Assembly: GCF_000003815.2 (NCBI RefSeq)
Contig: NC_049995.1
Span: 12,100,917-12,164,916 of the forward strand
DNA from: Branchiostoma floridae
Taxonomy: Eukaryota; Chordata; Leptocardii; Amphioxiformes; Branchiostomatidae
Direction of reading: 5' to 3'
DNA length: 64,000 bases
Part shown: piece by piece, positions 7,555 through 64,000 of the stretch
How the letters are laid out: each line of letters opens with the position of its first letter
Position numbering within the stretch: position 1 is the first letter of the stretch
The notes under the pieces: generated by a model
The model's input: the letters and a program-made list of their open reading frames with translations, nothing else
What the model was told of the DNA's origin: nothing
Database searches by the model: none
Made by a program: the position numbers and the translations under genes

Positions 7555-7587
7555 CTGAAGAAGGTGACAGACGGTCACCGAAACGTC
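7555..7587 (+). ncRNA. Hammerhead ribozyme-like core
   Basis: CTGAAGA at 7555-7561, helix II GGTGAC (7563-7568) pairing with GTCACC (7574-7579), GAAAC at 7580-7584 and GTC at 7585-7587. Helix I can form weakly between TTGCC upstream and GGTGA downstream (two G-U pairs). Helix III would be at most two base pairs, so activity may need a dimer, as argued for the very short helix III of Penelope-type hammerheads. Structure inferred by eye. Confidence 0.55.
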
Positions 7588-9717: not shown

Positions 9718-12700
9718 ATGTTTGGATTCGGAGAGAAGCAGCCACAGCCTAACAACACAGGAGGTAATGAAACGTGAATAGTTCAAATACAGTTTAATCT
9801 CTATAATAACTGGATAAAAGACGGAGATTTACTTCCTGGCCTTTCTATTTACATTTGAGTGACATTTGCATACGATCCCAAGGAGTTAGCGAATTGATGT
9901 GTTCAACCATGTTTTCCTAGTTAGCTGTACTTGTTTTGAATTGTTCTGCAAGTTCATTCTAGTGACGCTGAAGAGGAGTGACGGATGTCACTCAGAACTG
10001 GTAAATCCAGTGGTAGAGATTGAATATTGTTTACCTGGATGTCTAACCTTCATGAATATGTGATTATGTTTAATTCGCTCAGCCCATTGGATTCACCCTA
10101 CTTGATACGAAAGCTGGACTGTGATTTTGATGTCCTTTAGTGGATTTTATACTTCCTATTCCATATATGTGTTTTCTTCTTGCCAATAATGAAAATAAAG
10201 GAACAGATACACCATAGATCAGTCACTAAAGTAACTGGTTATGATCAAAGAATCAAATTCAAATTTATATCCAGTTGCTTGAGTAAATACTATTTGACGT
10301 ATTTTAGAATCTGAATGTCTAGAACGTTTATGGCGGTTAGACATTCAGGTAAACAATATTCAAATGAAATTCAATCTCTACTAGATAAAAACGGAGATTT
10401 ACTTCCGTATGAAGGACATGTTATAATGTCTAACCTTCATCGAAATATTTTTTTGCGATGACAAGTCAGTCTAGCTGCATTAGAAATATCAAGTTGCCAA
10501 CGGCCCTGGATAGGCCTAATCTTGTTGTTTCCTTTGAAGTATATGTTAGCTAGTTGAGTTAGTTATGTGTATTCAATGAGAAGTATAAATGTATGCATGT
10601 TTTGGCTGTCTGGGTTTGCCATGTATTGTATTATCTGCAATTTCAATAAATCTAAATCTGAAATGATAAAATATGGTTCGTACAAGTCTATACAGTTTAG
10701 TTCTATCTTGCTATATCTATAATCTATATTCTATCACAGTATGACGTTCATACTCCCTCCTATCCAAAGCACATGTACAATATATTTATGATTGTTGTGC
10801 ATTGTGATAACTATAATTTCCATCCAGGCACCACGCCCCAGCAGCAGCCCCAGACTGATTGGAGGCCAGTTGCAGACGCCGCTGCAAAAACACCCAACCC
10901 TCTGTACGTCTCCAGAGCAGGTAAATATTCTGTTTGATCTCTTGATTTCATATTCTTCATTATTATGTCCAGAAAAAGAATCTTTATAAACAAGTCCGCT
11001 GTATATTTCTTTTTACATTCGATTTAACCCATTGGTTTATCTAGAATCTAAGATATCTGCGTCAACTTTTACATGGTTCTTATGTTGATACCTGTAAAAG
11101 AATATAATTAGAAACTTTACAACGTTCTATGTGTCTTCAGAAAGGTTGGAATGTTGCCAGTGTCGCTTGTGGAATCCTGTTAACTGTCGTGCTGTTGTAT
11201 TCTTATTATATTGCAATCCATACATAGTATGGGATTGCAATATATTGTCTTTCCTTTGTTTCTTCTTCTTCTCCTGTCAAATCTTCAAATGGGATTAATT
11301 TTTTCATTTTTTGACCAAATGAGCTGAAATTTGGCACGGTGGTAGCAATAGCAAATACCCCCAGACTTTTTTTCACTTTCTTGATAGAGGCCTTAGAATT
11401 TATGATATTTACGGTTTTTGGTCATTTTTAGACAAAATATGTATATTTTGGGCCCCTGTGCCCTGGTATTACAAGCTAATGACCTGAAATTTGGTACAGA
11501 GGTGCATTGGACATATGAGCACAGAAACCCATCAACACTTTCTTCATAGATCACTTCAAAAATGAGTTATTTTAGGGTTTTTGGCCATTTTTTACTAAAA
11601 ATGTATATTTTTGGCTCCTATGCCCTTGTATTATAACCAAATGACCTGAAATTTGGTACATAGGTGCGTTTGACATATGTCCACAGATAACCATCAGCGC
11701 TTTCTTCATTGTTTACTCCAAAAATGAGTTATTTTAGGGTTTTTGGCCATTTTTGACAAAAAAATGTATATTTTTGGCTCCTATACCCTTGTATGAAAAC
11801 CTAATGACCTGAAATTTGGTACAGAGGTGCATTGAACATATGCTCACAGGACCCCATTGACACTTTCTTCATAGATCACTTCAAAAATTAGTTATTTTGG
11901 GGTTTTCAGCCATTTTTGACTAAAAATGTATATTTTGGGCTTCTATGCCCTTGTATGTAAACCAAATCACCTGAAATTTGGTAGAAAGGTAAATTGGACA
12001 TATGACAACAGGACCCCATCAACACTTTCTTCATAGAGCACTTATAAAATGAGTTACTTTGGGATTTTTAGCCATTTTTAACTAAAAAATGTATATTTTT
12101 GGCTCCTATGCCCTTATATTGAAACCAAATGACCTAAAATTCGGCATGAAGGTGTGTAGGACAAGTGCCCACAGTACTCCATTTTCCCATTGAGCAAACA
12201 TTACTTCAAATTGTTGAATTTTGGGATTTTTTCAAGGATGAAGATGGATTGCAATATGCTGTATTTGCTCCTAAGCAAATGTCGGCCTTTCTAGTTCTGT
12301 TTTTTATTTATTAGATTTTTAACTTGAAAATCATCGGTTTATTCAATACCTGTGTCAACCGTGTTATCTCCCTTGTTTGCTAAACAGGAAATGGTTGGGT
12401 AGAAGGTCAGCAATAGATTAGTTATGCAAATGAAGGGTTCATTTGCATTAATAATGAGAAAATCACGTATATACCATGGATGGACTTTTGATTTGATAAT
12501 TATACAATTTCATTTTCCGAGTTTTGAGTTTACGAACTCTTGTTCAATTTCCAATTTTGTATCATCGAACAGATGCGACCTACGCTAGCGCTGCAGAAGC
12601 TAACAGCAAGAGGGCGAAATGTTGGGGCTTGTGGAAGAAGCTGTGGCGCGTCATCAACATTCTGTTCGTCGTGATCAACGCCATACTGCTGCCGTACTTT

Positions 12701-14978
12701 GCAGGTTAGTTATATTATAACGTTAAGCGTTGAAGAGGTTTTACTTCTTTCAGTTGACACTCGCACTGCCACCACGACTACCTCATTTAACAGGAAACTC
12801 TGGGGCTGTCTTTGACTTCGACTTTATTTGGATCCACAACTAGGTTGGTATAGATGATCCCACATGTGTACACACTGATACTACCGGCCTACCCTCTTGA
12901 TGTAACCATTATAGACACCGCAGACGCTATTCTGGACCATTGAGAAGCATTATTTGAATGTACTTAGAATATTGTTATTGGTTGTTATTTTGCTGAAGTA
13001 AAATCCCATTTGTATTAGCTTTGTGTCGGTCTGCCCTTTGAACACGCTACAGGCTAGTTGTAATCATATTGGCATGTAGACAGCTATAAGTATGGCAAGC
13101 GTTCATAATTGTTTCCTATAGAAAATGATTTGTTTGGGCCGAGTGGATATTGTGGATCATCTCATGTGTTCATAGATTTAGTGTAACCGTTTCTTTTTGA
13201 TACAGTTAAAGTCACCATCTACTCTGAGGAGAATACCAGTCTGCGTGAACAGATGGCCAACCTGAACAGGACGATGGAACTGCGATTTGGTGAATTACTA
13301 GTAAATCGTAAGTAAAATGCATCATTAACATTGCCTCCATGAACATTTGAGACATTTATGTGTGTATGTAAAATGCAGAATGTAAATTGAGTTTTTGTGT
13401 GTAAAGTGCACCTCCGTGATTGTTTTTCAAATGTTTAATTTCGCCATCGGAACTTGTCATTCTGGAGATCATTGCAAGTTGCATCGTATGCCTCCTGCTT
13501 AAAGTGCTCATTATTTTCACTGAGTGTGCTGCACAACTTTGCCAACTTTACCAATATGCAAAAGAGTTGAAGGCAATTTTGGATTGTTCAATAAAAAATA
13601 AAATTAAAATGAATAAATGAAACATAACCAGGTAAGACAAGGTCAAGCCGAAGACGAAAGATAGTGGGTGATATCTGAAACATCTGACGTTTCGCATCCA
13701 GTTGCTTGAGTAACTACCTTTTGTCGTATGTTGTTACCTAGATGTCTAAACTTCATCGACGTAACAAATGTTTTCTATTTTCAGGAGAAAAGGGGCTCAT
13801 AGGGCCACCTGGACCTCCAGGGCCAGCTAGTCCTGTGTCTCTCGGACCTCCTGGTCCTCCAGGAGAAAAGGGAGCCATGGGGCCTCCTGGTCCCCCTGGA
13901 CAAAGTGGACCGGTGGGGCCGGCTGGCCCTCCAGGGAAACAGGGACCGAGGGGACCGGCTGGATCCTCTGGAAAGCAAGGTCTACAAGGCCTGATGGGAC
14001 CTCCAGGGCCGCCAGGAAACTCAGTCTGCCCCAATGGACCACCTGAACACCCTCAAACATTCACACGCCCAGGGTTAACTGGAGGTAAGTTCATGTGAAA
14101 ACCTGTAGTTATTACCTTCATTTGTTTCATTTGTGCGGGGGGGGGGGGGGATTGTTGCCCTAGTGTGTGTCACTGTGTCTGTGTGTTTGCTTGTTTTACC
14201 GGGTATCTTTGTGAATGTAATGTGGTTATATTTGGTATGTGTTTAGGTGTTGGGAAGATGAAGGTCAAAGCTCAAGGTCGAGCGAGTTGGTGTGGGATCT
14301 TGGTACAGCAACAGAACAGTTGTTTCGTACCTTTTGTTTTGAACATGATATGGAATAGATTTTTTTGGGTGGCAGATACTTTTCCATGTGATTAAGAAGC
14401 GATGTATGTTTCGGCCCCTGGTAATTTGCTCTCGAACTGCAGGGGCGTTTTTGTTAAACTCTTTAAAATAGGATAACTGTACAAAGGAATTCGAAGGGAA
14501 ATTTCCTTCACATTTTTTACGCACGTAGCTCAGACAGAAATGTACACAATGAGATGTATTGAAAGATGAATACTTTTTCCCCTCAGTGTCCTGCCCGGAA
14601 GGGTATACAAAGTTCCGTGAAACCTGCTTCAAAGCGTTCCAAACAAAAGTGAATTTCGGCGACGCGGTGAATACCTGTGCCAAGGATGGTGGAACCCTCG
14701 CCATGCCCCGAGACCCTGAAACCAGCGCCTTCCTCTCTCAGTTCACCGTGACGAGTACTAGCTACTGGATCGGCCTGCACGATCAGCGTAAAGAAGGAAA
14801 GTTTGAGTGGGTGGATGGGTCTGCCCTAGGCGAGTACGACTTCTGGATGCCAGAAGAACCAGATGACAGTGGCGGGAACGAAGACTGCGTCCGCCACTAC
14901 CCCTGGGTAGGGATGTGGAAGGACAGGCCATGCTACGACAAGCGACGCTTCTTCTGCCAGGTCACTCCAGGTACCTAA
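9718..14978 (+). CDS. Type II transmembrane collagenous C-type lectin, copy 2 (six exons, 354 aa)
   Basis: Tandem paralogue of the gene at 714-4965 with the same exon phases. Exons 9718-9763, 10828-10920, 12573-12704, 13206-13307, 13785-14084 and 14587-14978 give 354 aa. Cytosolic tail 1-72; membrane segment about 73-95; coiled coil about 92-124; collagen region about 128-204, less than half as long as in copy 1 because it has only one of the 20-residue units; lectin domain 227-354. Cysteines C227/C238, C255/C348 and C325/C340 fit a long-form C-type lectin fold. The calcium loop is E315-P316-D317 and the WND position is W335-K336-D337. In known families EPN favours mannose and QPD galactose; EPD is intermediate, so specificity cannot be read off. 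The stop follows PGT; an extra 3' exon would need splicing at 14971, which I do not favour. Confidence 0.88.
11201..12294 (+). mobile_element. Helentron/HINE-like non-autonomous element with six 162-bp repeats
   Basis: It starts TCTTATTATATTGC after a T and ends CTAG before a T, fitting insertion between two Ts. Subterminal inverted repeats: ATATTGCAATCCA at 11208-11220 and its complement at 12245-12257. A perfect 6-bp hairpin (TTTGCT/AGCAAA, loop CCTA) spans 12264-12279, 11 bp before the CTAG. The core is six diverged tandem units marked by GACCTGAAATTTGG at 11321, 11481, 11643, 11806, 11968 and 12131 (period 160-163). No coding frame. It lies in intron 2 of lectin copy 2. The architecture parallels DINE-1/HINE elements; class assignment is inference from structure. 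Confidence 0.6.
13650..13775 (+). repeat. Fragment of a fold-back repeat abutting a lectin splice acceptor
   Basis: Related to one arm of the inverted-repeat element at 26661-27080 (shared CCAGTTGCTTGAGTAACT and GATGTCTAA motifs). Its end lies within ~15 bp of the acceptor at 13784 of the collagen exon of copy 2, so the polypyrimidine tract may be partly element-derived. Further fragments are at about 7040-7130 and 17140-17190. Confidence 0.5.
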
Positions 14979-33700: not shown

Positions 33701-36700
33701 TGTTTCACTGCCAAAGCAAGAAGAGATGACAGACATATATAATTTGATAAGCTTGATTCAGAGGGAGAAACTTTGAGATGAAAGTAGTTTGCAAATAATG
33801 TTGACTTTTGTAACAACCCTTACACATGTTATAAAGTATCACATAAATGCTGTGTACTTTGCTTGGGAACAATTTATATACAGAAATGTTTTAAACTTTC
33901 TTTCTTTCATTTTTGTACAGGTGCAATTGACAGATTTTGAGAATGCTGCGTACGTGGTGTTCATCGTTCTCCTGACCAGAGTCATCCTGTCGTACAACCT
34001 CAACTTCCTCATTCCAATATCTAAGGTCGGTTTATTATTGACTGCAATAGATTGTTAGTGACTCAGTTTGTAACCCCTATAGTGTCTGTACCTCCTGCAG
34101 TGTTGTTACCACTGAAGTGTCCATACCCCCTATAGAAGCTTACCCCCTGTAGCATCTGTACCCCATGTAATGCCTGTACCCCCTGTAGTGTTTGTAACCC
34201 CTGTAGAGTCCATACCCCCTGTAGTGTCTGTACCCCCTGTACTGTCCACAAGCCCTGAAGTGTCCATACCCCCTAAGTGTCCAAAACCCAGGGCCTGAGT
34301 GTATAGTGTCTGTACACCCTGTACCCCCATCTTAGGTTCATTACAAGCTACATAAAATGCTCAATAATTGCTACAATTCTGAATGTTATCACTGTGACAG
34401 TGATTGTGGAAGCTTATAGACTTACCTGAGGAAACTATTTGTGGAAATGATGTAATTCAGTTTTCATGAGTTTAACTTTAAGAAATGTCGCCTTGTCCCC
34501 AACAGGTTGATGAAAATATGCAGGAGGCTCAGAAGCGAGATGCTGTCAGACAGGGGCTCTTCTGGTTTAGGAAGGAGGTCCTGCCTCCCAGTAAGTGTCA
34601 ACATCAGAGTTTTTTTTCTCCTTCACAAACATGGGCCCCCAAACAATGGATGGGATGGAACAAAATTTAAGCCACAGTGTAGAGATAGCCCAGATTTGTA
34701 CACTACACTTCACACATGTGTATGATGCTTTTATTTTTTACCTTAGCCAAGAAGGCTAATAGTATGTTTTCAGCAACGTTTGAGTGTGTGTGTGTGTGTG
34801 TGCGTGTGTGCATGTGTGTGACACTGTGTGACTGTGTACATTGTACATGTGTATGTGTGCATTGTAGGATTGTGTAGATGACCAGCATAACTCTAGAATG
34901 CATTGATGGTTTTTATTGATGTTGGTAGGTCCGACCTAGAAATGATCACATTTTGGGCCCCCTTGCAGCTTGTTATGGTACTGCAGCAGAATTCTCGAGT
35001 TCTATATATATAGTTGTCAATCATGTGAGCCTTCCCCCATTGACACCTGTATATTATTGTACTTTCTAGATGAGTGCTGTGAGGAGGATCCAAAACCCAA
35101 GCCGGCCGCCAAGTCCTACAGCCAGTATAACGGGTCCTGTCAGCAGGAGGAGTACACCAAGATGTCAATCAACGAGATCATCAACGGACAGGTCAGACAT
35201 GGAATGATGTTTACTGTTAAATTTTTTTTGGGTTTCTCCTGTCAATTGGACAGATGAGGAGGCAGACAGGCTTTTGCTTGTTAGCCTGACCTGCCGATGA
35301 CTTTTTATGGTGAAGGAGGCTAGGGGTGTGCAATTCCTTCTCCACCCTCTCGTCTACTGGAGCACTAAGTCTCACAGGGGCAACTGTATGCAACGTGTGA
35401 GGCGGCTCCAGCAGATGCAGCTTTGTTGTTCGGAGTATCCGTCTCCTAGGAGGACTTCCGACCAAGGATGTAAGGGGTTCCTCCTACCCCCGACTCGTGT
35501 GCCATGGCGGGTGCCACAAAGCCTCACCAAGGCCACACTGTTTACAGTAACATTAAAAGCAAAGCAATCACATAGGAATCAAAGATCTCATTCATGTGTG
35601 ACATATTGTCATGTAGATTATTTGTGAATACTAATTGATGATAGCTCTAGCCATCATAGCTATCCGTCTCCCACAAGGTGTAATAATCAAACAAAGATAT
35701 TGTTAAGTTAAAAAGTATATAATTACCCATATTAGTCTGATAATACAATGTATACAAAGGGATGGTGCCATCTCCATTTCTTTAGCCCTTGAACCACACA
35801 TTTGTGCAAGATATTACTACACGTAACATTGTACATCAGGGATCTAGTCTGCTGGTAGTTGTGTGTTTAACTCTAATGCATACTCAGCTCATCAGTGCTG
35901 AGTGCTAAGCAGAGAAGGCAATTTCTACTATGATCTCGTCATGTGACAAAGTTGCATTATTTATGTTTACCCAACAGGCCGGTGGATTCCAGGGTCTGGT
36001 GTCGTTGATGAACTCTTACCTGGAGACGGTTGAGATTGACGTGGACACCAGGTGCTCTGTACAGCAGTATCTCAGGCTCATCCAGAAAAGGGCTTCAGGT
36101 ACGACACGGAGAACGTATTGTACTTAAACTACTTAAAGATATAGTTAGAATTACTTTAAGAGTTTTGGTGTGAAGCTACATGTAGCATTTAACTGTCTTT
36201 GGCCCAACCAGAAGGTTGGCAAATTTCAAAATCTGCAGATTTTAAGAAATTAGATCAATTATAAGAAACTCAGAGAAGGGATTCAAGTAGGGCACTTGGC
36301 ACATTCTTTACTATCCTACTTGTCCCTACAGTACCTAGATGTAGTCCCTACGGGTCCTTGGGGGGATAAGATAGACACGAAGAATGCTGTCTCTAGGCTT
36401 ATCTTTCTATTCATATATAGTTAGTCTTTTGGCCAGGTTTAGGAACATCCAATCTGCGGTGTTGTCCTGCCAGGGTTTTCTGTGTTGCAATTCTATTAGG
36501 CTTGTCTATGCAAGGACACACCTAGAAATAATCTACAGTAACACGACTTTAAATGTGGATCTGAACTGTCTTAAGCCGCCGATTGATTGATTGATTTTCT
36601 TTTCATCTTTGATAGTCAAGAAATTGTAGTTTACTGTAAATGCATTTAAGTTCGCGGGGATTTAATTTCGCGGTTACACCATAGACTGCAGCCTAATACC

Positions 36701-37144
36701 ACAATAGAAAAATTTTCGCGGTGGATTTAAGTTCGCGGTGAAGTGATCACCGCGAAAACCGCGAATATTAATCCACCGCGAACATTTCTGCATTTACAGT
36801 ATTACCTAATCTGTACATTGTAAATCCAGACATTTTGGACTAAACTTCCTATTTAAAGGATGGACAAAAGCAAATCCCTGATTTCTTATTTTCTAGGGGA
36901 GCTGATGACAACAGCCCGTTGGATCCGTGCCTTCGTCCAGAACCACCCCAAGTACAAATACGACTCCGTAGTGTCCGACGAAATCGCGTACGACCTCACA
37001 AAGGTGTCGGACGAGATCACGAAGGGCATCCGCTCGTGTCCGGAACTCTTCGGAATGCTGAACTCGCGCACTAAAGTTTCCCTACCCCCTGTAGTGCACA
37101 AGAAACTGAGGAAGGAAAACCCAGATCACGATATTTTGACCTAA
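18718..37144 (+). CDS. GCLC: Glutamate-cysteine ligase catalytic subunit (16 exons, 659 aa)
   Basis: Catalyses ATP-dependent joining of L-glutamate and L-cysteine to gamma-glutamylcysteine, the rate-limiting cytosolic step of glutathione synthesis. Exons: 18718-18867, 26454-26563, 27704-27823, 28102-28173, 28487-28600, 28756-28814, 30097-30308, 31518-31634, 32035-32173, 32518-32630, 33359-33451, 33921-34025, 34506-34590, 35070-35191, 35978-36098, 36897-37144. All junctions are GT..AG and frames close exactly to 659 aa (human about 637). It opens [16 protein letters not shown] like the vertebrate enzyme. E50 and E52 (WGDEVEY) match conserved substrate/metal glutamates, C252 matches human C249, and C563 in VDTRCS matches human C553. 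Other family blocks are [31 protein letters not shown] and [19 protein letters not shown]. The last ~25 residues are poorly conserved. A degenerate copy of exon 2 lies just upstream of it. No GCLM modifier gene is in the window. Confidence 0.97.
21713..21823 (+). repeat. Module R, first of two identical 111-bp copies
   Basis: Identical base for base to 22971-23081 by eye. CpG-rich, starts ATGGTAGGATTGC and contains a small hairpin (ATTGCT...AGCAAT). No open frame of note; function unknown. Confidence 0.85.
22180..22270 (-). promoter_or_regulatory. CpG-rich promoter-like block inside GCLC intron 1
   Basis: Dense CpG with CTCGCGAAATTTCGCG and TTCTCGCGAGG, resembling E2F and CGCG-box promoter motifs. 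On the minus strand ACATGGCTGCC is a good start context at about 22250 and opens a 37-codon frame; a possible donor (AGCAGGTATGT) lies downstream near 22110. A cryptic or fossil minus-strand first exon is possible, but no second exon was found. Confidence 0.25.
22379..22715 (+). repeat. Two-copy tandem repeat of about 215 bp
   Basis: CTGAAGACCCTCGGGACCC near 22379 and CTGAAGACCCTCAGGACCC near 22592 start related blocks; each is followed by a related TTCTGCAG...GATCTTCAC block (about 22490 and 22695). Diverged tandem duplication, no convincing coding sense. Confidence 0.55.
22854..22970 (+). repeat. Module S, first of two identical 117-bp copies, joined to module R
   Basis: Identical to 23237-23353. 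It begins GGCCGTTGATGTCTTTGC and can fold on GATGTCTTT/AAAGACATC. The second copy of module R (22971-23081) follows with no bases between. Upstream, GCTACGCGGTTTGGGG near 22817-22832 is the inverse of CCCCAAACCGCGTAGC inside the module, giving a 16-bp inverted repeat. Confidence 0.85.
25465..25671 (+). mobile_element. TA-flanked MITE with CGCG-rich arms, copy 1
   Basis: Starts CTGTAAATG and ends CATTTACAG with TA on both sides. The interior contains repeated TTCGCGGTGGATTTAA-like motifs in both orientations. Related copies: 36634-36799, 29170-29756 (interrupted) and a diverged one at 42812-43062. TA target and TIRs suggest mobilisation by a Tc1/mariner-like or other TA-targeting transposase; none is encoded here. 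Confidence 0.75.
26286..26346 (+). pseudogene. Degenerate duplicate of GCLC exon 2
   Basis: After an intact acceptor (TTACTAG, ending at 26288) the sequence repeats the start of exon 2, [19 protein letters not shown], then diverges, has no donor and reaches TGA a few codons on. It lies ~165 bp upstream of the real exon (26454-26563); upstream intron sequence is also duplicated (about 25925-25999, 26160-26285 and 26345-26453). Using it would truncate GCLC at about residue 76. Confidence 0.75.
26661..27080. mobile_element. Fold-back element with ~95-bp inverted arms
   Basis: Left arm about 26663-26757 and right arm about 26991-27080 are imperfect inverted copies (GCAACTGGATATGG against CATATCCAGTTGC; GTTTGTTGTCATC against GATGACAACAAAC). 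The spacer holds TTTG repeats. No coding capacity. Located in GCLC intron 2. Confidence 0.65.
28053..28079. repeat. (ATG)n trinucleotide run
   Basis: Eight or so ATG/GAT triplets, ~25 bp before the acceptor of GCLC exon 4. Confidence 0.9.
29170..29756 (+). mobile_element. TA-flanked MITE, copy interrupted by another element
   Basis: Same family as 25465-25671, with CTGTAAATGCAGAAATG at the left and GCATTTACAG at the right, TA on both sides. The 368-bp element at 29215-29582 has inserted into it. The CGCG positions have largely decayed to CACG/CATG, consistent with loss of methylated CpG and an older copy. In GCLC intron 6. Confidence 0.7.
29215..29582 (+). mobile_element. hAT-like element with CAGGGCTCGAAAT ends, nested copy
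   Basis: Terminal inverted repeats CAGGGCTCGAAAT and ATTTCGAGCCCTG, flanked by the direct repeat TTGAA. Subterminal regions carry several GTGCACCCA motifs in both orientations, possible transposase-binding sites. The CAGGG start is typical of hAT elements; a 5-bp target duplication would place it near the hAT5 group rather than 8-bp hATs. Confidence 0.65.
32617..32900 (+). repeat. Tandem duplication spanning the donor of GCLC exon 10
   Basis: The exon end and donor region GATCACTTTGAGGTGGGATCA (32617 on) recurs at about 32781, followed in both copies by (TTTG)n, a GATCTATTGAGATC-like block and CCCAATTTTACATGTA. The second copy includes only the last ~12 exon bases plus a donor. Confidence 0.75.
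34071..34330 (+). repeat. Diverged minisatellite, period about 18 bp
   Basis: Repeated TACCCCCTGTAGTGTCTG-like units in GCLC intron 12. Open frames on the minus strand across it are repeat artefacts. Confidence 0.75.
36295..36600 (+). repeat. Possible LINE 3' end with (ATTG)n tail
   Basis: A block in GCLC intron 15 ends in CCGCCGATTGATTGATTGATT, a short tandem tail like that of CR1/L2-type LINEs. No coding part is attached. Confidence 0.35.
36634..36799 (+). mobile_element. TA-flanked MITE with CGCG-rich arms, copy 2
   Basis: Starts CTGTAAATGCATTTAAG, ends CATTTACAG, TA on both sides; closely similar to 25465-25671 but lacks ~40 bp near the left end. It lies ~100 bp before the last GCLC exon. 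Confidence 0.75.
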
Positions 37145-46200: not shown

Positions 46201-49200
46201 GGTAATTGTACTTGTAGCTGACTATCAAAGTTAGGGCTTTTGTCACATGGCGTGCGAGTAGGAGACCACTGAATAGGTAATTTTGTCTGCACTTCAATGC
46301 TTTCTTTTCATTAAATCACACATTACAAATAAAAGATCATTAAACAAAGCAGAGACAGTAAACAGGCACCCATGTATACCTTGACAGCGCGGATGAAATC
46401 GTTTCCGCCGTCCTGTGGAGTCCAGAAGGGCTGAGCTCGGAGGTTGGGCTCGTTGTAGAGCGAGCGCTGGTACATGGAGGCAAACAGACCACGATCCGCA
46501 CCACTCTTATACCAATACTTTGCCTAAGAACAATGCGGGTGAATATAGATTGAATAAAATGTAGAGAGGCACTCCAGACAAAAAAAAAAAAACTAAAGGT
46601 AAAACGGCAAAAATGTCTGGTGCATCATATCCTAGACTGAAATCTTTCTCTGTACTCAACTTAGCAATCACCTTAGGTAGGTTACAGGATAGCCTTTCGG
46701 ACACAATGTCATGACGTAAGCAATTGTTAAAAAGTGTCAGGAAGGAAAAAATCAAGTATACACCTGTCTACTGTGTAACTCAGGCAAAGGATGGTGACTG
46801 TGCGAACATTCTCGAATACCGACCTCTTCCGGGTTCCCCATCCTGTACAGAGCATCCCCCAGGTGGAAGAAGAACCTTCTGTCGATGGTCCCCTCCTCCT
46901 GTCTGAATGCCCTCCCTCAGCAGGATTCATTCATTCACTCACTCAATTACCCCCAGGTGAAAGAAGAACCTCCCATCGATGGTCCCCTCCTCCTCAGTTT
47001 GGATACCCTCCCTCAGCAGCATTCATTCATTCATTCACTCACTCACTCACTCACTCACTCACTCATTCATTCATTCATTCAACCTTCTTGAGTACTGACC
47101 TCCTCTGGGTTTCCCATTCTGTACAGAGCATCTCCCAGGAACCTTCTGTCGATGGTCCCCTCCTCCTCTGTCTGAATGCCCTCCCTCAGCAGCATTTATT
47201 CATTCATTCATTCATTCATTCATTCATTCATTCACTCACTCACTCACTCACTCACTCACTCACTCACTCACTCACTCACTCACTCACTCCTTCACCCATT
47301 CTCGAATACCGACCTCCTCCGGGTTCCCCATCCTGTACAGAGCATCCCCCAGGTGGAAGAAGAACCTGCCTTTTGTTGTGCAATAAAATCAATCAATCAC
47401 TCATTCATTCAGTGATTTCCATCCAATCCGGGCATCCATCCATCAAGATTACAGACCTCCTCTGGATCCCCCATCCTGTACAGAGCATCCCCCAGGTGGA
47501 AGAAGAACCTTCCATTGATGGTCCCCTCCTCCTCCGTCTGGATGCCCTCCCTCAGCAGCATTCATTCATTCATTCATTCACTCACTCTTCCTAAGTACCG
47601 ACCTCCTCTGGGTTCCCCATTCTGTACAAAACATCTCCCAGGTGAAAGAAGAACCTTCCGTCGATGGTCCCCTCCTCCTCCTCCTCCTCACTCACTCACT
47701 CAATTACTCATCCATCCATCCATCCATCCATCCATCCATCAAGTCTTAGAGTACATGTACCAACCTCCTCTGGGTTCCCCATCCTGTACAGAGCATCCCC
47801 CAGGTGGAAGAAGAACCTCCCATCGATGGTCCCCTCCTCCTCAGTCTGGATACCCTCCCTCAGCAGGGGGATCGCCTCGTCATACCGAGTCTCTGTCTTC
47901 AGGATGAAGCCCAGGTGAACCTTCGCAAACCCATCTTCAGGCCGAATCTGAATCACCTGTACAAAACAAAAACAGTGTTAAGAAAACTGATGACAATCGG
48001 TAGTAGTAGTATCCATTATTTGATTATAATGCTGTTGGGATCCCTGACACAGAGGTTATTGTTTGGCAAAATTTAATATTTTGTCTCTGTCTTCAGGAAG
48101 AAACCCAGGTGTACCTGTACAAACCCATCTTCAGGCCGAATCTGAATCACCTGTACAAAACAAATTAAAACAGTGTTGAGAAAACTATTGCTTGGCAAAA
48201 GTTAACATGATCTCGTCTCTGTCTTTAGGATGAACCCCAGGTGCACCTTGGCAAACCCATCTTCAGGCCGAATCTGTATCACCTGTACATAGCAGATACA
48301 GTGTATTACTAACTAGAAATTAAACTAATGAAAATAGAAAAAATGATGGCTTTTGGAATAACTTGCCAGGGAAGTTTTGCTACCAGAGGCGTTGGCCAGC
48401 GGAGCGGTAAACATGGACTTGAGCGTGGCCAATTTTTCAGTTCAATTCCTGCACCCCCATATAGGAAGGCCTGGTGGAGGCTTAAGGCAAATGTGCAGAT
48501 GTTGGCACGATGGCACACCAAATCCGTGTGACTGTGTTTTGGGCACACTTTTTGACAGATAAGCTGAAGAGGTTCAGTGGACGTCACACCACCGTTATGG
48601 TGGGTATATCGCAGGGGTCTAGCCAGCTCGAATTTTTTTTCGTCAGCCAATTCCCATTGTCGCGAAAACACTATTCCAGGAGTTAGAGAGACTGATCTGA
48701 GACCTTGAAAAACGGGTTTTAATGAGATTATCGTATGCAAAAGGGCACCGACACACATTGTCAACAATCATAACAATAGCAAAACAAACAGTGTGTGGCT
48801 TTTACGGCCGTGGACGGCGTCCCCAAGCAGCCTGTAGCTTCCACCAAGGAGCTTTTATCAGATTTTTTTCCGTCAAAGTTGACGGATTGGTTTTAAAATT
48901 TTTCCGTCACACGCAGCAAATTTCTGTCAATTGACGGAAAAACGGACGCTGGCTAGAGCCCTGGTATATCATGTAAACTACCTTTGCCTAGAAAAGACGA
49001 CCTTGGGTGCTAGAAGCCCACGCCCTACCTCTCCAAATATCCTCTTGGCAGCGTTGTTGTTCCCCACCATGAGGTATGACACGCCCAGCTGGTTGAGGAT
49101 TTCCGGTTCTCCCGGCACCATCTCGTTCAGACGACCCATGGTTTTCACTGCCTGGCGAAGCTTACCTGCAAAATACACGAAACTAAAGTCAAGTCAAAGT

Positions 49201-52200
49201 CCTAATTCCCACGCCTGATGGTGCATAGGGCAGCACCATCTCTGTTTCAGTAGCCCTGGGTCACACAGCTTTGTGTAATCACTACAGCAGGGAGCTAGTC
49301 TACTGGTAGTGGTGTGTGTTCAATTTCCACCGTACTCATTCCTGAATGCTGAGTGCTGAGCAAGGAAAGTAGAATGTACCATTTTTTAAGTCTTTGGTAT
49401 GACTCAGCCGGGGATCGAACTCACGACCTAGAAGGCCAGCACTCTACCCACTCGGCTAATTACATCGGACAGAGGCAAATAAGATGCCAATTTTTCCAGG
49501 CAAAGGACGTCTACAAAATAATACTATGTAAGGGCACACAGTCATTTACATAGACTTGTATCAAATAGAACATCGGATTCTATAATACTTCTAAAATAAT
49601 AAATTAATTAATTTAACATGATCACTTACTATGGGGTGCAAAGGTTAAGTGGGTAGAGCATTTGGCATGCACTCGCTAAGGTCATGAGTCTGGTCCCAAA
49701 CTTTAAAAATGGTATACACACTGCTTTCTCTGCTTAGCACTCAGCATTAAATATTTTGGTTTAATGTAGTACAATATTATTCATGTGCACTTAGTCTCAA
49801 CAGGACTTTGGTCCCAAAATGGTCTGCCTTGCTGCCTTGGTGAAACACCTGCTTTAAATAACATTAGGCTTGGAAAAGAAGCAAACCTTGAAGCAAACCT
49901 TGTAATCAATCACCGTGTCCTGACATGTTTGACAAAATAACGATTTAACACCAACGTCTGTCAGACACTGCACGTGATCATGACCAGGGCTCGAAATCCA
50001 TTTTTTCTGCATACCTGCACTGGTGCAGGTAACATTAAAAATTACCTGCACCAGACAAATTTTACCTGCACCACTCTGAATTTAGGAAGTATGAATCATA
50101 CTAACATTGTTCAGGAACCATTGCTATTTCTTCTTCTGTATTTTATAGTTGGTATCAGCCAATGCAGCTATTATAAATAACAATCCACATAAACCTACAT
50201 CATAGGACATTTTATGTATAAAATCCTGTACATGGACCAGTGCAGGTTAGGTGCAGGTAGACACCAGAAATACCTGCACAGCTCCAATTTTATCTGCACT
50301 AACCTGCATATGCAGGTGGTATTTCGAGCCCTGATGACGTAGAGGTGAAGATTGTAAGTGGTTAAATTTCTGGCCATTTTTCATACAGCGCCATCCTCGG
50401 ATGATATTGTTGGTTTAACTTTTACTTAGTACATCTGTTTCTGCATGTTAGCAACTACACTGTAGTGGGCGTAAATACAATGTACATGCAAGTCAAGGAT
50501 ATATGTTAAATAGTTGCAAGCATGTTGCAGGGACTATAGTAATGTGAATTATACAGTTGTCAGGGGTTTGGCCTGACCTGAACAAACAATATTGTGGTCA
50601 CCATGCATGGTCATAACCTTAACCGGATTCAGGACAGCCACATTGGCGAGAAGTTAAATCATGGGGTCCGCACCATCGCACTCGGAGCCAGTGGAAATCA
50701 CACAGATAACTGTAAAAGATAGAGCGACGACTCCATCCTCCAGCTTCCAAGAACAGATCCGGGAAGAGCTGACCTGCAGTATCTGCTTGGACCTGTTCAT
50801 CCGTCCGAAAGCGCTTCCCTGTCAGCACACCTTCTGTCAGGACTGTCAACGGGACCATGCTGAGGTCAGAGTGCCTTTCCAGTGCCCAAACTGTCGTCTC
50901 GAGGTCAGTTTGCCACCCGATGGGGTCGCGGGTTTCCCTGACAACCACTTGGTTACAAGTTTGTGCGAGAAACTCCAGCACACAGAGAGTACAGAACAAC
51001 CCAAGTCTGAGAAAAGGTGCGGCATTCATATCTCAAACACTCTAAAACTTTACTGCACACAATGTCAGAAGCCGGTTTGTGAACTGTGTCTAGAGGAGAC
51101 GCATAACAACCACCGTACAACAACAGTTAACCAAGCTGCTCAGGAAAAGAGGTCTACAGTCCAGGCCTTGATCACAGAGGGAAGGCACATTCTGGAAAGC
51201 TACTGCAGCTTCATCAGAAGTCTGAGGGAAAAAGAGAAAACCCTGAATGAACAGAAACAGCAGACAGACAAGAGCATCCACCAAGCCTACAACCAGATGC
51301 TGCAGAAACTCATCGAGAGGAGAGAACAGCTCTTGTCTGAATCTGAACAAAATAGCCGAAAAAATTTAGCCACGATGCAAAGTGGTAGAGAAATAGTGCT
51401 GACAGACTTCAACGAACTGTCCGCTGCCTGCGATCAAGCGGAGAAAGAAATGGAGCAGGGAGGGGTTGAGTTTCTTGGTCAGGAGTCCATTCTGACGAAG
51501 GCAATAGAAAAGTACAGACGAAAAGCAGCACCAACTCCAGTGCGCACCCACCCTGCTGTCTTTGAGCCAATGTACACTGCGGACACCGCCGTACCGGTGT
51601 TAGGACATGTGAGGGTCCAGTCTCTCCCATCTGCACCAATCCAAGCAGCACCTGCACCAATCCCAGCAGCATTTTCATCATCTAGTAATGAAGCAGCAAA
51701 GGGCAGAGGTCATCACCGTAGAAACCACAGACAATCAGTCCTGTCTCTCCCATCTACTGCATCACTAGAAGTGCCTAATAGAAGTATTGACCGAAGACAT
51801 TCAGACCCACTTTTTCAGTCTTCTCCAATCCTTGAGGAGCCTGCCACTGCTGATGAGGCAGCTTTGGGCAGAGGTCATCACCATAGAAACCAAAGGCGAT
51901 TGTTCCAGTCTCTTCCATCTTCACCGATCCCAGCACCTCCTGCAACTAGTAGTAGTGGAGTGGGGAGCACAGGGCATCACTATGGTAAGAAGAATAAAGC
52001 GACCCAGACTCTTCCATTTGAATCAATCCTAGCAGCGTACACATCCAGTAAAGTTGCAGTGGGGGGCAATAGTCAGCGCCAGGGCAACCATAGGGAAGAG
52101 AAGCAGGGGTTTCAGAAGTGCTGCACCTTTGGAGGTCAGGGTTCAGGCACCGGACAGTTCAAGGGGTCACTTGGGGTCGCAGTGTCAGATGAAGGGGAGA

Positions 52201-55200
52201 TCTTTGTAGCAGACAAGGGGAACCAGAGAATCCAAGTCTTCACCCTGCAGGGGACGTTTGTCCACCAGTTCCCGACAGTCGTTCCTGATGAACGGGACAT
52301 GGAACCCATGGATGTAGCAATGGACGGGAATGGGAACCTGTGGGTGGTGGGAGAGACAGAGACTGGGCACTTTGCTGTGCAGTACAACAAACAGGGAAGG
52401 GCGCTGAGAAAGATTGAGCTAGAGAAGTCAGACTGGAGAAGAGGAGTTGCTGTGGACACCAGATGGAACCATGTTCTCATCACACACACTGCAGGCTTCA
52501 TCCTCCGACATGGTGAAGTTCAAGTGTTCAGGTCTGATGGGAAGCTTGTAAAAACCGTGGGACAGCGTCAGGGGATGAAGCGCCTTCAGTACATCACCGT
52601 GGACGGGGAGGGGAACATTCTCGTGTCCGACTTTCACAACCACTGCATCTACGTCTACAACAAGAACGGAAAGTTCCGCTTCAAGTTCAAGGGCGAGGGA
52701 AGCGGTAAACAGCTGTGGCATCCCTGCGGCATCTGTACCGACAGGGCGGGTAACATCATCGTGGCGGACAGCGGGAACATGCGCGTGGAGATGTTTGACA
52801 GGACAGGCAGATTCCTCGAACACATCGCGACCGACATGGACAAGCCGATGGCCGTTGCCATGGCAACACAGGGACGGCTGGTCGTGACCGATTGTCCTAT
52901 TCTGAAAAACCACACAGTCAATGTTTTTCAGGACTATTGAATCTGAGCAAAGTCATACTGAATTGCAAGCTTTTTATCAGCATATAGATCTATTCAGTAT
53001 CAAGTTACACACTTGACATGTTCCTGAATTGCAAATACGCCGTAGAACTGTTGTAAAATTGCACACCCCTTTTGCCAGTGGGTATTTCATGCAACAAATC
53101 TGGGTTGTGCAACAATGCAAAGTTATCCAGCATCGGTTTGGGATTTGGGGATTCCGTGCAATTAACAGAAGTGTGCGGTAATCTGTTGTGCGAGTAACTT
53201 CTTTGACTTTGACTTTATTCAGATCCACAATTAGCTTAACAATATGCTTCTGCTGAACAGTATCAACATTCAACAAACAACATTCTGTGGAGAAAGACTT
53301 TAAATTTGCTTCTAGTTGACAACTTCCAGACCTCTAAGTCTTGTAAATGCACACACCTACATGTATAGTAGCATGCAAGTAACTTTTGAAAAGGTGTCAT
53401 ATGGTAATATAATATGTACGAAATATAAAATTTGTGGGGAGTGTTTGTCTCAATGCAATTTAACATCCTTACCAACAACCATGATGGTAATAAATGATAT
53501 TAAATAATTTATCATATTATGACTTAAAGTTTATAAATTTAAAGCAGGAACACTACTGTGAATATTTCTGGGCGATCCTTCCCGCGGTCGGGTTGGTACC
53601 TCGGGTGATACGGAATACACCATGTTGTATTTTATTTATGTCATACTCACCTGAGAAAACACATAATTTCGATAAGAAATGCACCAGAAGTTGAAAAAAT
53701 GTTGTGTCCTTGAACAAAGGATTGTAACAACAGCAATTCTAACGTCCGAATCCGGTATTCGAATTTTCAACCATGCCATATTCTGCCCATTCGAAATAGT
53801 TTGATTTACTCAAAGGAAGCCTGTGTGATACAACTTAGAACCTGTGTGATACGGAAAGTTATCACACGGTCGGGAACACCCGTATGGAACGTTTTCTGGT
53901 CACAGGTATGACATAAAAAAATTACAACATGACAATGTATAAAACAAAAAGCCTACCATAAAAGGTGAGTCGGTTGGCTTGCCTAAGTAGCGCCTGTTTC
54001 TTCAGCTCTTTGGGACAGTTCTTTTGCGTTGGGACCTGAAATAAATTGGAAGGGAGGCAAATGAAGGTGAAACCTACTGTAAGGAACAGGGAAAGAAATT
54101 TGTTACCTAATGGCAACCAAAGAGAATGCATCAAACAGAACTATGGAAAAGATAATATTATACAGAACAAAGATTCAAAAGTGGATTTAGGCCACATCAA
54201 TTCATGATACTCAGATATTAATCACTGCCACTCAACCCAAGAATGTACGATCATAAGGCATTGTTGTATGAGGAAACTTTAGTAAATATCAAGGCTTAGC
54301 TTAAAGTTAACTTACAGTGATCATAAACAGCAATCAATGAAGAAATATCACAAATATGCTAAATCAAATTCTAGTTAACCAGTTTGTCAGTTGGTATAAC
54401 CAAATTAAATTTTAATCATTAACTTTATCAGCAAAACAACATTGGCCAGGCATTCTTTGGACTATATAGTATCAAACAACAATATTGGTACATTAGGGTA
54501 CATGTAAATCACAATCTTTGAAGCAGCTTACCTTGCCATAGCTTTCGATGCATGCTTGGAGCCACTCATTGCTTTTCCATTTATCCGCCACCTTATCCTC
54601 GGCCTGTGCACGGCCGAACAGCGCCCGCGGACTGTCGGGGAATATCTCCAACAGGGAGTCGTATTTCTTCAGGGCAGCATCATAGTCACCCTGGGTGGGA
54701 AAATTTGGTTTCTGTTGAGAAAACTTGTCATAATTATGTAAACTGCCTTAAGGGAACATACCAGGTTTATACTGAAGAGTACATTCAGGCTTCCTATCTG
54801 GATTTATTTGATCTTCATAGTTGTAGTCATAGTCACCCTGCTGGGTGGGAAAATCGTTTCTGTCGAGAAAACTTGTCTATATGACCTCCATTGGTCTTTG
54901 TAAACTGCCTAACACAAGCTATATAGCCAGACAGATTTACACATGTATTTGATCGACTCACATCGTGAAGGGCCATTTTCAAGAAATGTTGCAAGTTTTT
55001 GTGGTGTGGCTCTCCTTTAACAATGGACAGCCAAAGCTAGGCAATCATTTACACCTGAGTTGAGGGAGGGAATGGGTGTAAAGTGCCTTTCCAATGGGAA
55101 TAACATCGGAACCTGTCAAGGATTAGAAGTCCAGGGTCGCATGTAACTTACTGGCCACTAAAAGACATGTACAAAAAGTAATGACCATAATTATTCCCTA

Positions 55201-61200: not shown

Positions 61201-64000
61201 TCATCTTACTGTCTTCATCGTCATCATCATCATCATCTGTAACTTGAGGAGGGGGGATTTCTGGGGCGGCCACTGCTTCCTCTGGAACTGCCTGTTCCTC
61301 ACCTTTATATGACCAGAAATTCAGTTATCATTATGACTGTATAACTGGTGTAACAAACGTATGAATGCTTCTTAATGCATTCACGTGCTCGTCCTAGATG
61401 GGCCTTAATACAAGACTTAGTTGTAAAAATGACATTAGAAAATGCTTTCTCTTTTTATTTAGTGTTAATATGTAAAACCACAAAACGTACATATAAAAGA
61501 TTATACTTAAGTTATAGCAATCTTAGACTACTGGTTTCATATTCAAAATTTGTTATCCTCCAAAACCATAATCAATCATAGTTACATAATGAGTACTGAT
61601 GGCAAAGCTGTCTGCTAAACCAAAGTATGTCATAGATATCTTGACCAGCAAAAAGTCCAACTACCAAAGACTGTTTAATGTAAAAGTAAACCTAATTGAG
61701 ACTTATCCTAAGATTTACCATTTATGCATGTATACAATGCACATGACTGTATAACAATGAGATGGGTACATGTAGAATGAAGTGATGTATTTTTACCATC
61801 TTCTCCCCTTGCTTGCTCCTCCTTTGCGATGGCATTTTCATCCGGTAAGTCTCCCTCCTCCACTGCCTCAGCATCCTCTGCTGTATCGTTGCCATGGAAA
61901 CGTGGTGATGGTCAAAAAGCAACAAAAATACATGGTCCCATACAAACAATGTGCATTTGGGGGATATTGATTTGCACATACATTGTAGATGACATGGGGC
62001 TATATGACATGTTGGGGCTATAATTGGTGAGTGGGGACAATGAGACATTCGCAAACATCAATCATATTATGTATCATTCATTTGGGAGATTTTAAATGCT
62101 CAAAAAAACTCCGTACTCATCAAAGTATGGGGTAGTTGTTTTTGTAGTTCTTTTCATCATATTTTTATTCTATCTTTTAATATCATTTGTAGATTATCCA
62201 GTTAGTCAATCATGGCTTTTATTTACACCTTATTGTCATGGCCCAATGTTAATTGATGATTTATGAGCTGGTTATTTTACACTGACAAGCTCACATTTAT
62301 CTGCGGGGTAAAGATGACATGCTCTAAATTACCCTAAGTAAAAATAGATTTTTATCTATTGGGAAAAGATTGCACATTAAATTCCTTGTGATTAGATGAT
62401 TGTAGAGTTAGCTGGAGGAGAACAGGTACTGTACCAGGAGCTTGCTCCGTCTCATCGGTGCTATCATCTTCATCAGCTTCGGCAGTATCCTCGCTGACAG
62501 GCTCCTCTGCCTCCCCCTCAGGTTCTTGCTCCTGCTGTGCTTCTTCTGATGCTTCTTGAACTTCCTCTTTTGTATCTTCAAGTTCTTGAGCTTCATCCTC
62601 AACTGCTTCAGGTTCGTCTCCATCTTCACTGGCAGGTTTCTCTGCTTCTGCCTCAGGTTCTTGCTCCTCCTGTGTTTCTTCTGATGCTTCTTCCTCCTTG
62701 GCTACTTCAGGTTCTTGAGCTACTTCTTCACTGGGCTCCTCCACACCTTCCTGTTCCTCCTCAGATGCTTCTGCAGCAACTTCAGGCTCCTCTGCAGCAG
62801 GCACTTCAACATTTTCTTCAACGACTTCAAATTCAGGCTCTTTCTCTTCTTCTACATCTTGCTCCTTGGTGTCCTCCCCTTTATCTTCAGCAACATCTTG
62901 GTCATCTGCTGCGACTGGTTCCTGTTCAGCTGGTGCATCTGCTTGTATGTCATCTTGAGACACTTCAGGTTCCTCGTCCTCAGCAGGATCTTCAGGCTCT
63001 TCAAGATCTTCTTTCACATCTTCAGCAGCTTCTTGTTCTTCCGCAGCTACTTCTGGTTCCTCACCAGCTGGTGCAGGGTCTTCAACAGGTGCTTCAACAG
63101 GTACCTCCTCAGTAAGTATCTTGGGTTCCTCTTCAGCTGCTTCTTGTGCAGGTTCATCGTTGTCCAGTACCCAATCAAGATCAAGATCAAGATCAAGATC
63201 TAGCTCTTCTTTGACATCTTGTGCAGGTTCTTGCACAACTTCTTGTGCAGGTTCCTCTACAACTTCTTGTGCAGGTTCCTCTACAACTTCTTGTGCAGGT
63301 TCCTCTACAACTTCTTGTGCAGGTTCCTCTACAACTTCTTGTTCAGGTTCCTCTACAACTTCTTGTGCAGGTTCTTCTACAACTTCTTGTTCAGGTTCTT
63401 CCACAACTTCTTGTTCAGGTTCTTCTACAACTTCTTGTGCAGGTTCCTCTACAACTTCTTGAGCAGGTTCCTCAACTTCTTGTGCAGGTTCCTCTACAAC
63501 TTCTTGTTCAGGTTCTTCCACAACTTCTTGTGCGGGTTCCTCTACAACTTCTTGTGCAGATTCTTCCACAACTTCTTGTGCAGATTCTTCCACAGCTTCT
63601 TGTGCAGCTTCTTCCGTTTCTTCTACAACTTCTTGGGCAGCTTCTTCTGGTTCTTCAACAACTTCTTGAGCAACTTCAACGTCTTGAGCAGGTTCTTCTA
63701 CAGCCTCTGGCGCGGCTTCTTCAGTTTCTTCTACAACTTCTTCCTGTCCTTCTGCAACCATTTCTAGCTCTTCAACAGCTGCCTCAGGTTCTTCAGCCTT
63801 GTCTTGTTCTTCAGTGTCCTGTTCTTCAGTAGGAGCATCTGCTGCCTCTGCAACTTCCTCAGGCTCATCTTCAGTTGCTACGGGTTTCTCCTCTTGCACA
63901 GTTTCAGGTTCTTCTACTTCCTGAGTTTCCTCTTCTGCAGTTTCTTCCACTGGTGCTGGTTCTGTTTCTTCTTCTTCTTCTCCCTGCTCTTCTTCCAGTG
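43285..64000 (-). CDS. ASPH: Aspartyl/asparaginyl beta-hydroxylase, 5'-partial (19 exons in window, 1184 aa visible)
   Basis: ER type II membrane 2-oxoglutarate/Fe(II) oxygenase that hydroxylates Asp/Asn in EGF-like domains. Exons in gene order: 64000-62435 (open past the window), 61880-61797, 61302-61210, 60857-60807, 60498-60424, 60225-60166, 60020-59928, 59510-59409, 58798-58709, 55397-55279, 54690-54532, 54035-53957, 49165-49029, 47956-47765, 46523-46380, 45740-45605, 45079-44988, 44261-44128, 43435-43285. The first nine encode an acidic luminal stalk; a Lys-rich stretch (RKVKKVKES) follows, then TPR-like helices (GDYDAALKKYDS, EILNQLGVSYLMVG, DGFAKVHLGFILK), then the catalytic domain. 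Metal-site histidines are in VWPHTGPTN and DDSFEHEVW (human H679 and H725 from memory); the 2OG-side motif is YRMILIIDMWHPDL. It ends in TAI. The visible part already exceeds full-length human ASPH (~758 aa) because of the acidic expansion. N-terminus and membrane anchor lie beyond 64000. Confidence 0.95.
44389..44617 (-). repeat. tRNA-derived SINE, family 1, minus strand
   Basis: On the minus strand: TGGCTGAGTGGGTAGA (A box), then GAGTTTGATCCC (B box), then the family body. In the ASPH intron after exon 44988-45079. Confidence 0.65.
46806..47700 (-). pseudogene. Array of partial copies of the ASPH TPR exon (3' part) mixed with CATT/CACT repeats
   Basis: Six partial copies of the 3' half and donor region of exon 47765-47956, at about 46809-46920, 46950-47020, 47085-47192, 47296-47365, 47445-47560 and 47590-47690. 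Each still shows the code for EEEGTIDGRFFFHLGDALYR or part of it, and most keep the donor side (RMGNPEE then GTNGGTA). They are separated by CATT, CACT and CATC microsatellites. None has the 5' half or an acceptor, so they should not be spliced in. They lie in the intron downstream of the real exon. Confidence 0.8.
48081..48290 (-). pseudogene. Two partial copies of the same ASPH exon (5' part)
   Basis: At about 48081-48156 and 48207-48284, on the upstream side of the real exon. Each has an acceptor-like run ending in TACAG or similar, then codes for VIQIRPEDGF and a version of VHLGFILKTET, then loses similarity; the second soon meets a stop codon. Neither has a donor. Together with the array at 46806-47700, the real exon is bracketed by copies of its own 5' half upstream and its own 3' half downstream. 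Confidence 0.8.
48612..48963 (+). mobile_element. Non-autonomous hAT element with 8-bp target duplication
   Basis: Ends CAGGGGTCTAGCCAGC and GCTGGCTAGAGCCCTG are inverted with few mismatches. Flanks GTATATCG and GTATATCA agree at 7 of 8 positions. The interior has TCCGTCA/TGACGGA motifs in both orientations. No transposase frame. In the ASPH intron between exons 47765-47956 and 49029-49165. Confidence 0.7.
49195..49470 (-). repeat. tRNA-derived SINE, family 1, minus strand
   Basis: Body and head match the family, ending in GGGATCGAACTC (B box complement) and CCCACTCGGC (A box complement). It begins ~30 bp from ASPH exon 49029-49165 on its acceptor side. A plus-strand head of the same family follows at about 49632-49760. 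Confidence 0.65.
49985..50333 (+). mobile_element. hAT-like element with CAGGGCTCGAAAT ends, second copy
   Basis: Terminal CAGGGCTCGAAAT/ATTTCGAGCCCTG inverted repeats flanked by the direct repeat ATGAC (49980-49984 and 50334-50338). Subterminal motifs are ACCTGCACC in both orientations, instead of the GTGCACCCA of the copy at 29215-29582. It ends ~330 bp upstream of the TRIM-NHL start codon. Confidence 0.65.
50661..52940 (+). CDS. Intronless TRIM-NHL protein, predicted RING E3 ubiquitin ligase (759 aa)
   Basis: One uninterrupted 759-codon frame. RING finger C3HC4: C39, C42, C54, H56, C59, C62, C75, C78. B-box 2: C120, H123, C132, C135, C140, C143, H148, H151. Coiled coil about 160-290. A Ser/His/Pro-rich linker about 300-480 carries repeated RGHHxRN and QSLPS-like motifs and is probably disordered. 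NHL beta-propeller from about 485 to the end, with repeats such as GVAVSDEGEIFVADKGNQRI and ICTDRAGNIIVADSGNMRV. The RBCC-NHL order matches the TRIM2/3/32/71 class, but the one-exon structure and divergent linker suggest a lineage-specific member, so I give no symbol. Substrate unknown. It lies wholly within an ASPH intron (between exons 49029-49165 and 53957-54035) on the opposite strand. A candidate polyadenylation signal AATAAA is at 53489-53494. Confidence 0.95.
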   Translation: MGSAPSHSEPVEITQITVKDRATTPSSSFQEQIREELTCSICLDLFIRPKALPCQHTFCQDCQRDHAEVRVPFQCPNCRLEVSLPPDGVAGFPDNHLVTSLCEKLQHTESTEQPKSEKRCGIHISNTLKLYCTQCQKPVCELCLEETHNNHRTTTVNQAAQEKRSTVQALITEGRHILESYCSFIRSLREKEKTLNEQKQQTDKSIHQAYNQMLQKLIERREQLLSESEQNSRKNLATMQSGREIVLTDFNELSAACDQAEKEMEQGGVEFLGQESILTKAIEKYRRKAAPTPVRTHPAVFEPMYTADTAVPVLGHVRVQSLPSAPIQAAPAPIPAAFSSSSNEAAKGRGHHRRNHRQSVLSLPSTASLEVPNRSIDRRHSDPLFQSSPILEEPATADEAALGRGHHHRNQRRLFQSLPSSPIPAPPATSSSGVGSTGHHYGKKNKATQTLPFESILAAYTSSKVAVGGNSQRQGNHREEKQGFQKCCTFGGQGSGTGQFKGSLGVAVSDEGEIFVADKGNQRIQVFTLQGTFVHQFPTVVPDERDMEPMDVAMDGNGNLWVVGETETGHFAVQYNKQGRALRKIELEKSDWRRGVAVDTRWNHVLITHTAGFILRHGEVQVFRSDGKLVKTVGQRQGMKRLQYITVDGEGNILVSDFHNHCIYVYNKNGKFRFKFKGEGSGKQLWHPCGICTDRAGNIIVADSGNMRVEMFDRTGRFLEHIATDMDKPMAVAMATQGRLVVTDCPILKNHTVNVFQDY
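54671..54920 (-). repeat. Tandem duplication across the acceptor of an ASPH exon
   Basis: The start of exon 54532-54690 with its acceptor and ~80 bp of intron (about 54671-54770) recurs at about 54822-54920. The extra copy includes the codons for GDYD and a CCCAGCAG acceptor-like run, then no further exon sequence. Confidence 0.65.
55398..58708 (-). other. ASPH intron separating the acidic cassettes from the TPR part (3.3 kb)
   Basis: AT-rich, with a decayed SINE-like stretch near 55800-55990 and several G-runs. An unbroken 123-codon plus-strand frame at 56568-56939 has no recognisable motif and is Gln/Thr/Lys-rich as AT-rich DNA tends to be; I do not call it a gene. In vertebrates the equivalent boundary is where junctin/junctate-type products diverge by alternative 3' exons; none could be identified here. 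Confidence 0.5.
62435..64000 (-). repeat. ASPH: Coding octapeptide minisatellite in the giant acidic exon of ASPH
   Basis: This single exon encodes at least 521 residues, almost all Glu, Ala, Pro, Val and Gln with no long hydrophobic stretch. Between about 63210 and 63600 the protein is a tandem octapeptide EEPAQEVV, with EEPEQEVV and EESAQEVV variants, roughly 18 copies at a 24-bp DNA period; a few units are shortened. At about 63174-63201 a (Leu-Asp)n run comes from a GATCTT hexamer repeat. The reading frame is open to the window edge. In vertebrate ASPH/junctin products the corresponding luminal Glu-rich segment binds calcium and partner proteins; such a role here is inference. The long plus-strand open frames over this exon are antisense shadows of the repeat. 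Confidence 0.85.

Follow-up and report, generated by a model that had tools for sequence, protein, structure and literature searches.

Mirages are minisatellite-like tandem duplications of exon-intron boundaries in amphioxus genes, reported for the globins BflGb6 and BflGb9, with Adh3 as a cited example (PMC3087553). As presented in that report, their units measure 150-160 bp, may cover either boundary and in many cases contain splice signals, and the arrays are said to leave regular splicing undisturbed (PMC3087553). A mirage was found to differ in length between two haplotypes (6 versus 3 units), and one globin mirage appears to be aberrantly assembled in the genome draft (PMC3087553). Imperfect repeats of 60 bp and 108 bp over splice sites were also described for exons 3 and 4 of lancelet PGBD5; these were suggested not to disturb splicing, and Adh and troponin C were cited as similar cases (PMC3902484).

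We analysed a stretch of 64,000 nucleotides of Branchiostoma floridae DNA, hereafter the window, which contains exons of a gene for aspartyl/asparaginyl beta-hydroxylase (ASPH) on the minus strand. The exon of interest, 47765-47956, is 192 nt long, has 64 codons without a stop and is bounded by AG and GT. Its translation matched the human protein over residues 2-63 (E 1.6e-20) and gave consistent TPR matches, although 8/8 of these fell under the Pfam cut-offs. Other ASPH exons were located by tblastn with a human sequence, and the last exon placed in this manner gave a Pfam Asp_Arg_Hydrox match (1.7e-15). A plus-strand ORF of 760 codons (50658-52937) lies between the minus-strand ASPH exons and has RING, B-box and NHL matches, i.e., it is of the TRIM-NHL type.

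A search with the exon and 60 nt of each flank returned eight partial copies (Table 1) with BLAST E values from 8.7e-45 to 3.1e-25; as all values were 3.1e-25 or smaller, the copies are not due to chance. The inventory confirmed what had been reported in a sequence-only reading of this DNA, namely six copies of the 3′ part of the exon on its donor side, among which CATT/CACT tetranucleotide tracts are present, and, on the acceptor side, two copies of the 5′ part, no copy being whole (0/8). Tandem duplication of the whole exon was rejected for the same reason, as none of the eight is whole with both splice sites. That reading had also assigned donors to the donor-side copies, which holds for 5/6 of them but not for C5, while the acceptor is kept in 2/2 R copies; the boundary is thus carried by five of the six copies on one side and by both on the other.

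Table 1. Features of the duplicated ASPH exon boundaries (window coordinates; exon nucleotides counted from its 5′ end)
Feature	Position	Strand	Content or basis
Authentic ASPH TPR exon	47765..47956	-	64 codons; acceptor TTTTGTACAG|GTG, donor GAG|GTTGGT
C1	47603..47680	-	exon nt 115-192; donor GTCGGT
C2	47457..47558	-	exon nt 91-192; donor GTCTGT
C3	47314..47370	-	exon nt 136-192; donor GTCGGT; 5′ end interrupted by unrelated sequence
C4	47100..47192	-	exon nt 91-192, 9-nt deletion; donor GTCAGT
C5	46951..47019	-	exon nt 91-159; without donor; 97% identity to exon
C6, outermost on donor side	46824..46924	-	exon nt 90-192, 2-nt deletion; donor GTCGGT
R1	48083..48150	-	exon nt 1-68; with acceptor
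R2, outermost on acceptor side	48215..48282	-	exon nt 1-68; with acceptor
CATC tract between real donor and C1	47709..47740	.	sequence
CATT/CACT tract between C3 and C4	47200..47289	.	sequence
CATT/CACT tract between C4 and C5	47020..47081	.	sequence
Boundary duplicate at second ASPH exon	54827..54877	-	duplicates 54680-54729, taking in 11 exon nt and about 39 nt from the intron end, AG included

The breakpoints inside the exon recur. An inner junction at exon nt 90/91, beside GAAT/GAGT repeats, is common to 4/6 C copies (C2, C4, C5 and C6), with C1 and C3 starting at nt 115 and 136, and both R copies end at the junction 68/69; none of the copies includes the central 22 nt of the exon. C5 stops at nt 159, where it adjoins a GAGT tract. 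Units are spaced about 95-215 bp apart: successive donors are separated by 162, 146, 143 and 214 bp, C4 and C6 by 276 bp for two units, and the acceptor-side spacings are 194 and 132. The authentic boundaries form the inner ends of the two clusters, and the duplicates lie in the intron. Outside the outermost units the sequence departs from the array, and the intron that follows C6 is not common to most units. Because the array sequence ends there, the original intron junctions are probably those at C6 and R2, and the coding exon would use the innermost sites. Scored against the exon over the aligned bases, the differences of the copies (C1, 7/78; C2, 6/102; C3, 2/57; C4, 9/93; C5, 2/69; C6, 7/101) showed no trend, which argues against strict outward ageing with the furthest unit the oldest, and the copy closest to the exon is C5, second from the outer end.

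With low complexity masked, region 46700-48400 matched nothing else in the window at E 1e-3, and a dispersed repeat or mobile element was rejected as the source of the units on these grounds. A stretch of the form AATAAA-(TCAA) between C2 and C3 (47371-47400) resembles a retroelement tail; a 20-base probe from it, beside C3, occurred once in the window with up to 3 mismatches allowed.

These arrays are almost certainly two mirages of the amphioxus type, one at each boundary of a single exon. Like those of BflGb6 and BflGb9, the ASPH units are tandem, overlie an exon-intron boundary and mostly retain splice signals, and their size is minisatellite-like, although some spacings exceed the 10-160 bp given for the published cases consulted. 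In contrast to the globin mirages as described there, the ASPH arrays affect both boundaries of one exon, their units are interleaved with tetranucleotides, and an excess of silent changes was measured in them; haplotype length variation is documented for the globin mirages, whereas the ASPH arrays are known from one assembly. The PGBD5 repeats resemble them in overlapping splice sites but concern another gene, shorter units and, in the portions consulted, two different exons instead of the two sides of a single exon. An exon with both boundaries duplicated is not described among the amphioxus cases in the consulted portions of PMC3087553 and PMC3902484, and ASPH represents such a case. Also comparable is the intron-gain model of Rogers, discussed in PMC3087553, in which an internal duplication with AG/GT could found an intron; the ASPH copies are alike in carrying splice signals but never take in the entire exon, nor is a new intron visible.

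The differences between exon and copies are mostly silent. Counting each distinct change once and placing it at random among bases of the same kind, we expected 10.85 silent changes among the 31 distinct differences on which the analysis is based; 24 were observed, and 0/20,000 draws were as high. The excess was present in the C array (16/20 silent, expected 7.9, P 0.00015) and in the R array (8/11, expected 3.0, P 0.00065), and it was also found among the copies alone (C, 16/20 silent, 0/5,000 draws; R, 5/8, P 0.002). It was confined to frame 0, with no excess in either wrong reading frame. This, together with the placement matched for base and change, argues against mutation bias as its source; CpG sites accounted for 4/31 differences. 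The ratios of silent to replacement changes relative to the exon were 6:1 for C1, 4:2 for C2, 2:0 for C3, 8:1 for C4, 2:0 for C5, 6:1 for C6, 3:3 for R1 (P 0.18) and 5:0 for R2; taken singly, C2, C3, C5 and R1 were not significant at 0.05.

Pooled over the 21 pairs of exon and C units, which are not independent, pS was 0.30 and pN 0.023; the intron flanking the donors had a mismatch of 0.23 (15 pairs, likewise not independent). For exon versus R1, pS was 0.19 and pN 0.06, and for exon versus R2, 0.31 and 0. The hand-summed pN/pS between the exon and its copies was about 0.05 (5/383 over 28/109). Four incompatible site pairs among the C units fit exchange between units, although site 136 is common to 3/4 of them and recurrent mutation there could account for these.

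We compared these values with a crude simulation of seven units, one of them coding, in 100 haplotypes, with conversion of whole units and lethal selection. Exchange within one chromosome gave a pN/pS of 0.36-0.51 between coding unit and copies, and was rejected as the sole process given the observed value of about 0.05. With exchange between alleles, the ratio fell from 0.64 (r 0.001) to 0.44 (r 0.01), 0.27-0.32 (r 0.05) and 0.14 (r 0.1), reaching 0.03-0.09 at r 0.2-0.5; a match to the observed ratio thus needs a very high exchange rate in the simulation. In the matching runs, pS between coding unit and copies was 0.11-0.20 (theta 0.04-0.1) and fell short of the observed 0.26; silent diversity in the coding slot was also raised, to about 0.10-0.17. 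Polymorphism in amphioxus has been reported at about 3% to 5.4% (PMC8994340). Runs with three units, the number present on the acceptor side, yielded a pS of 0.07-0.13 versus the observed 0.19-0.31. One-way copying from the coding slot was rejected; with pN/pS of 0.33 and 0.10 (the latter at r 0.05), it gave a pS of only 0.07 and 0.04. In this model, strong exchange between alleles reproduces the ratio without the full silent depth, and the fit is qualitative because the matching runs fall short of the observed pS.

The explanation that we consider probable overall is that of two mirages on the ASPH exon whose units have continued to exchange sequence with it. Each array would have started with a tandem duplication between an exonic and an intronic breakpoint, and would then have grown by unequal exchange while the tetranucleotides expanded at unit junctions. 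A duplication running outwards from within the exon leaves the whole exon innermost, with 3′ parts beyond its donor and 5′ parts beyond its acceptor. The sequence-only reading took this polarity as a clue to breakpoints inside the exon and to repeated slippage or unequal exchange. As the same pattern can be reasoned to follow whenever one end of a tandem duplication lies in the exon, polarity has no such value; the process itself agrees with the geometry and is published for mirages, but slippage alone does not explain the in-frame silent excess. That excess suggests that fragments and coding exon still swap sequence, mostly across alleles. Protein-damaging changes would be purged once a unit occupies the coding position, and silent changes would persist. 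We give this exchange step by itself a little under an even chance.

Without exchange, the same geometry would be fully accounted for by tandem duplication, one-time or stepwise, followed by neutral decay of the fragments as intron, and both the deletions found in C4 and C6 and the shortening of C1, C3 and C5 resemble such decay. A copy free to diverge from a constrained exon should, however, reach a pN/pS of about 0.5 or more by our reasoning, as opposed to the observed value near 0.05; the simulation without exchange gave 0.72 for copies versus exon and 0.93 between copies, and the copies alone also show the silent excess. One-time duplication with neutral decay does not fit this excess, and we regard decay as unlikely. 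The copy number of such arrays can come out wrong in an assembly, as appears to be the case for the globin mirage in the draft (PMC3087553), so that collapsed or misjoined haplotypes might be suspected. Misjoined haplotypes should repeat whole stretches including both flanks, whereas the ASPH units, at about 95-215 bp from each other, have distinct junctions and indels and concern two boundaries; an assembly artefact is scarcely credible.

The silent-site signature could also arise if the fragments were under coding constraint of their own, being spliced and translated in some transcripts, and the exon part of R1 and R2 does have an open frame. This is quite improbable given their structure. 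On the coding strand the C units are preceded by purine-rich GAAT/GAGT sequence with no visible acceptor, and a GT is missing from the inner end of the R units; moreover, 2 nt are deleted in C6, and C5 lacks a donor. When the three acceptors were combined with the six donors, 17/18 pairings reached a stop at codon 26, 27 or 83, and the only one open throughout joined the innermost acceptor to the innermost donor. Nor does a plus-strand ORF of 271 aa (46779-47591) explain the signature, since by hand comparison, in C2 to C6, the third positions of the exon coincide with codon position 1 or 2 of this ORF. Another conceivable role is in splicing: the donor-like motifs of the GAGT tracts, which yield GTGAGT every four bases, might recruit U1 beside a weak donor or regulate inclusion of the exon. 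Scored with a donor frequency matrix, the real donor (GAG|GTTGGT, 0.37 bits) was the weakest of the six and that of C4 the best (3.52), and 35 GT sites in 46540-48399, the real donor included, scored at least as high as 0.37 bits, many of them GTGAGT in the tracts. Because the real donor scores weakest, competition by decoy sites, which the sequence-only reading had raised, is possible on paper, although 17/18 pairings meet a stop early on and the published mirages and PGBD5 repeats suggest that regular splicing is left undisturbed. The tracts are ordinary microsatellites, though, and published mirages are said not to interfere with regular splicing (PMC3087553); a splicing role, judged from sequence, is highly improbable. 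We do not expect the fragments to serve as exons, and splicing would be expected at the innermost acceptor and donor.

Beyond the reading of two mirages in continued exchange with the ASPH exon, we tentatively suggest that a mirage may represent a population-wide pool of interchangeable exon halves, in which the coding position feeds, and is fed by, the intronic fragments through frequent exchange between alleles. If so, selection at one position would clean replacement sites in all units, silent diversity between units would exceed the single-copy level, and silent polymorphism of the ASPH exon would lie clearly above that of neighbouring exons. A silent excess in apparently non-coding fragments offers a direct test of exchange between array and exon, a process that bears on how intronic repeats may shape coding variation and on the origin of new introns.

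A second ASPH exon, near 54511-54690, has a copy of its acceptor boundary 147 bp upstream (54827-54877, E 8.6e-13). Local copies, within 3 kb at E 1e-4, were thus found at 2/8 ASPH exon cores searched and not at the other 6/8; further ASPH exons, among them one within 49.2-54.5 kb and others lying upstream of 54.7 kb, fall outside this set of eight. With two exons affected, ASPH joins the few mirage genes named in the sources consulted.

Repeats occur elsewhere in the window as well. Tandem repeats of 60 bp lie at 3780-4289, an array with units of about 160 bp and copies 71-81% identical at 11314-12230, and densely packed tandem repeats, which contain long open frames, at 62464-63742, at the far window end upstream of the ASPH exons. 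A perfect 72-bp inverted repeat (7274-7345 and 7560-7631) flanks a run of N and is possibly an assembly effect. On the plus strand, 13742-14975 holds an ORF with collagen repeats and, after it, a C-type lectin ORF, and ORFs at 35909-37138 match glutamate-cysteine ligase (Pfam GCS).
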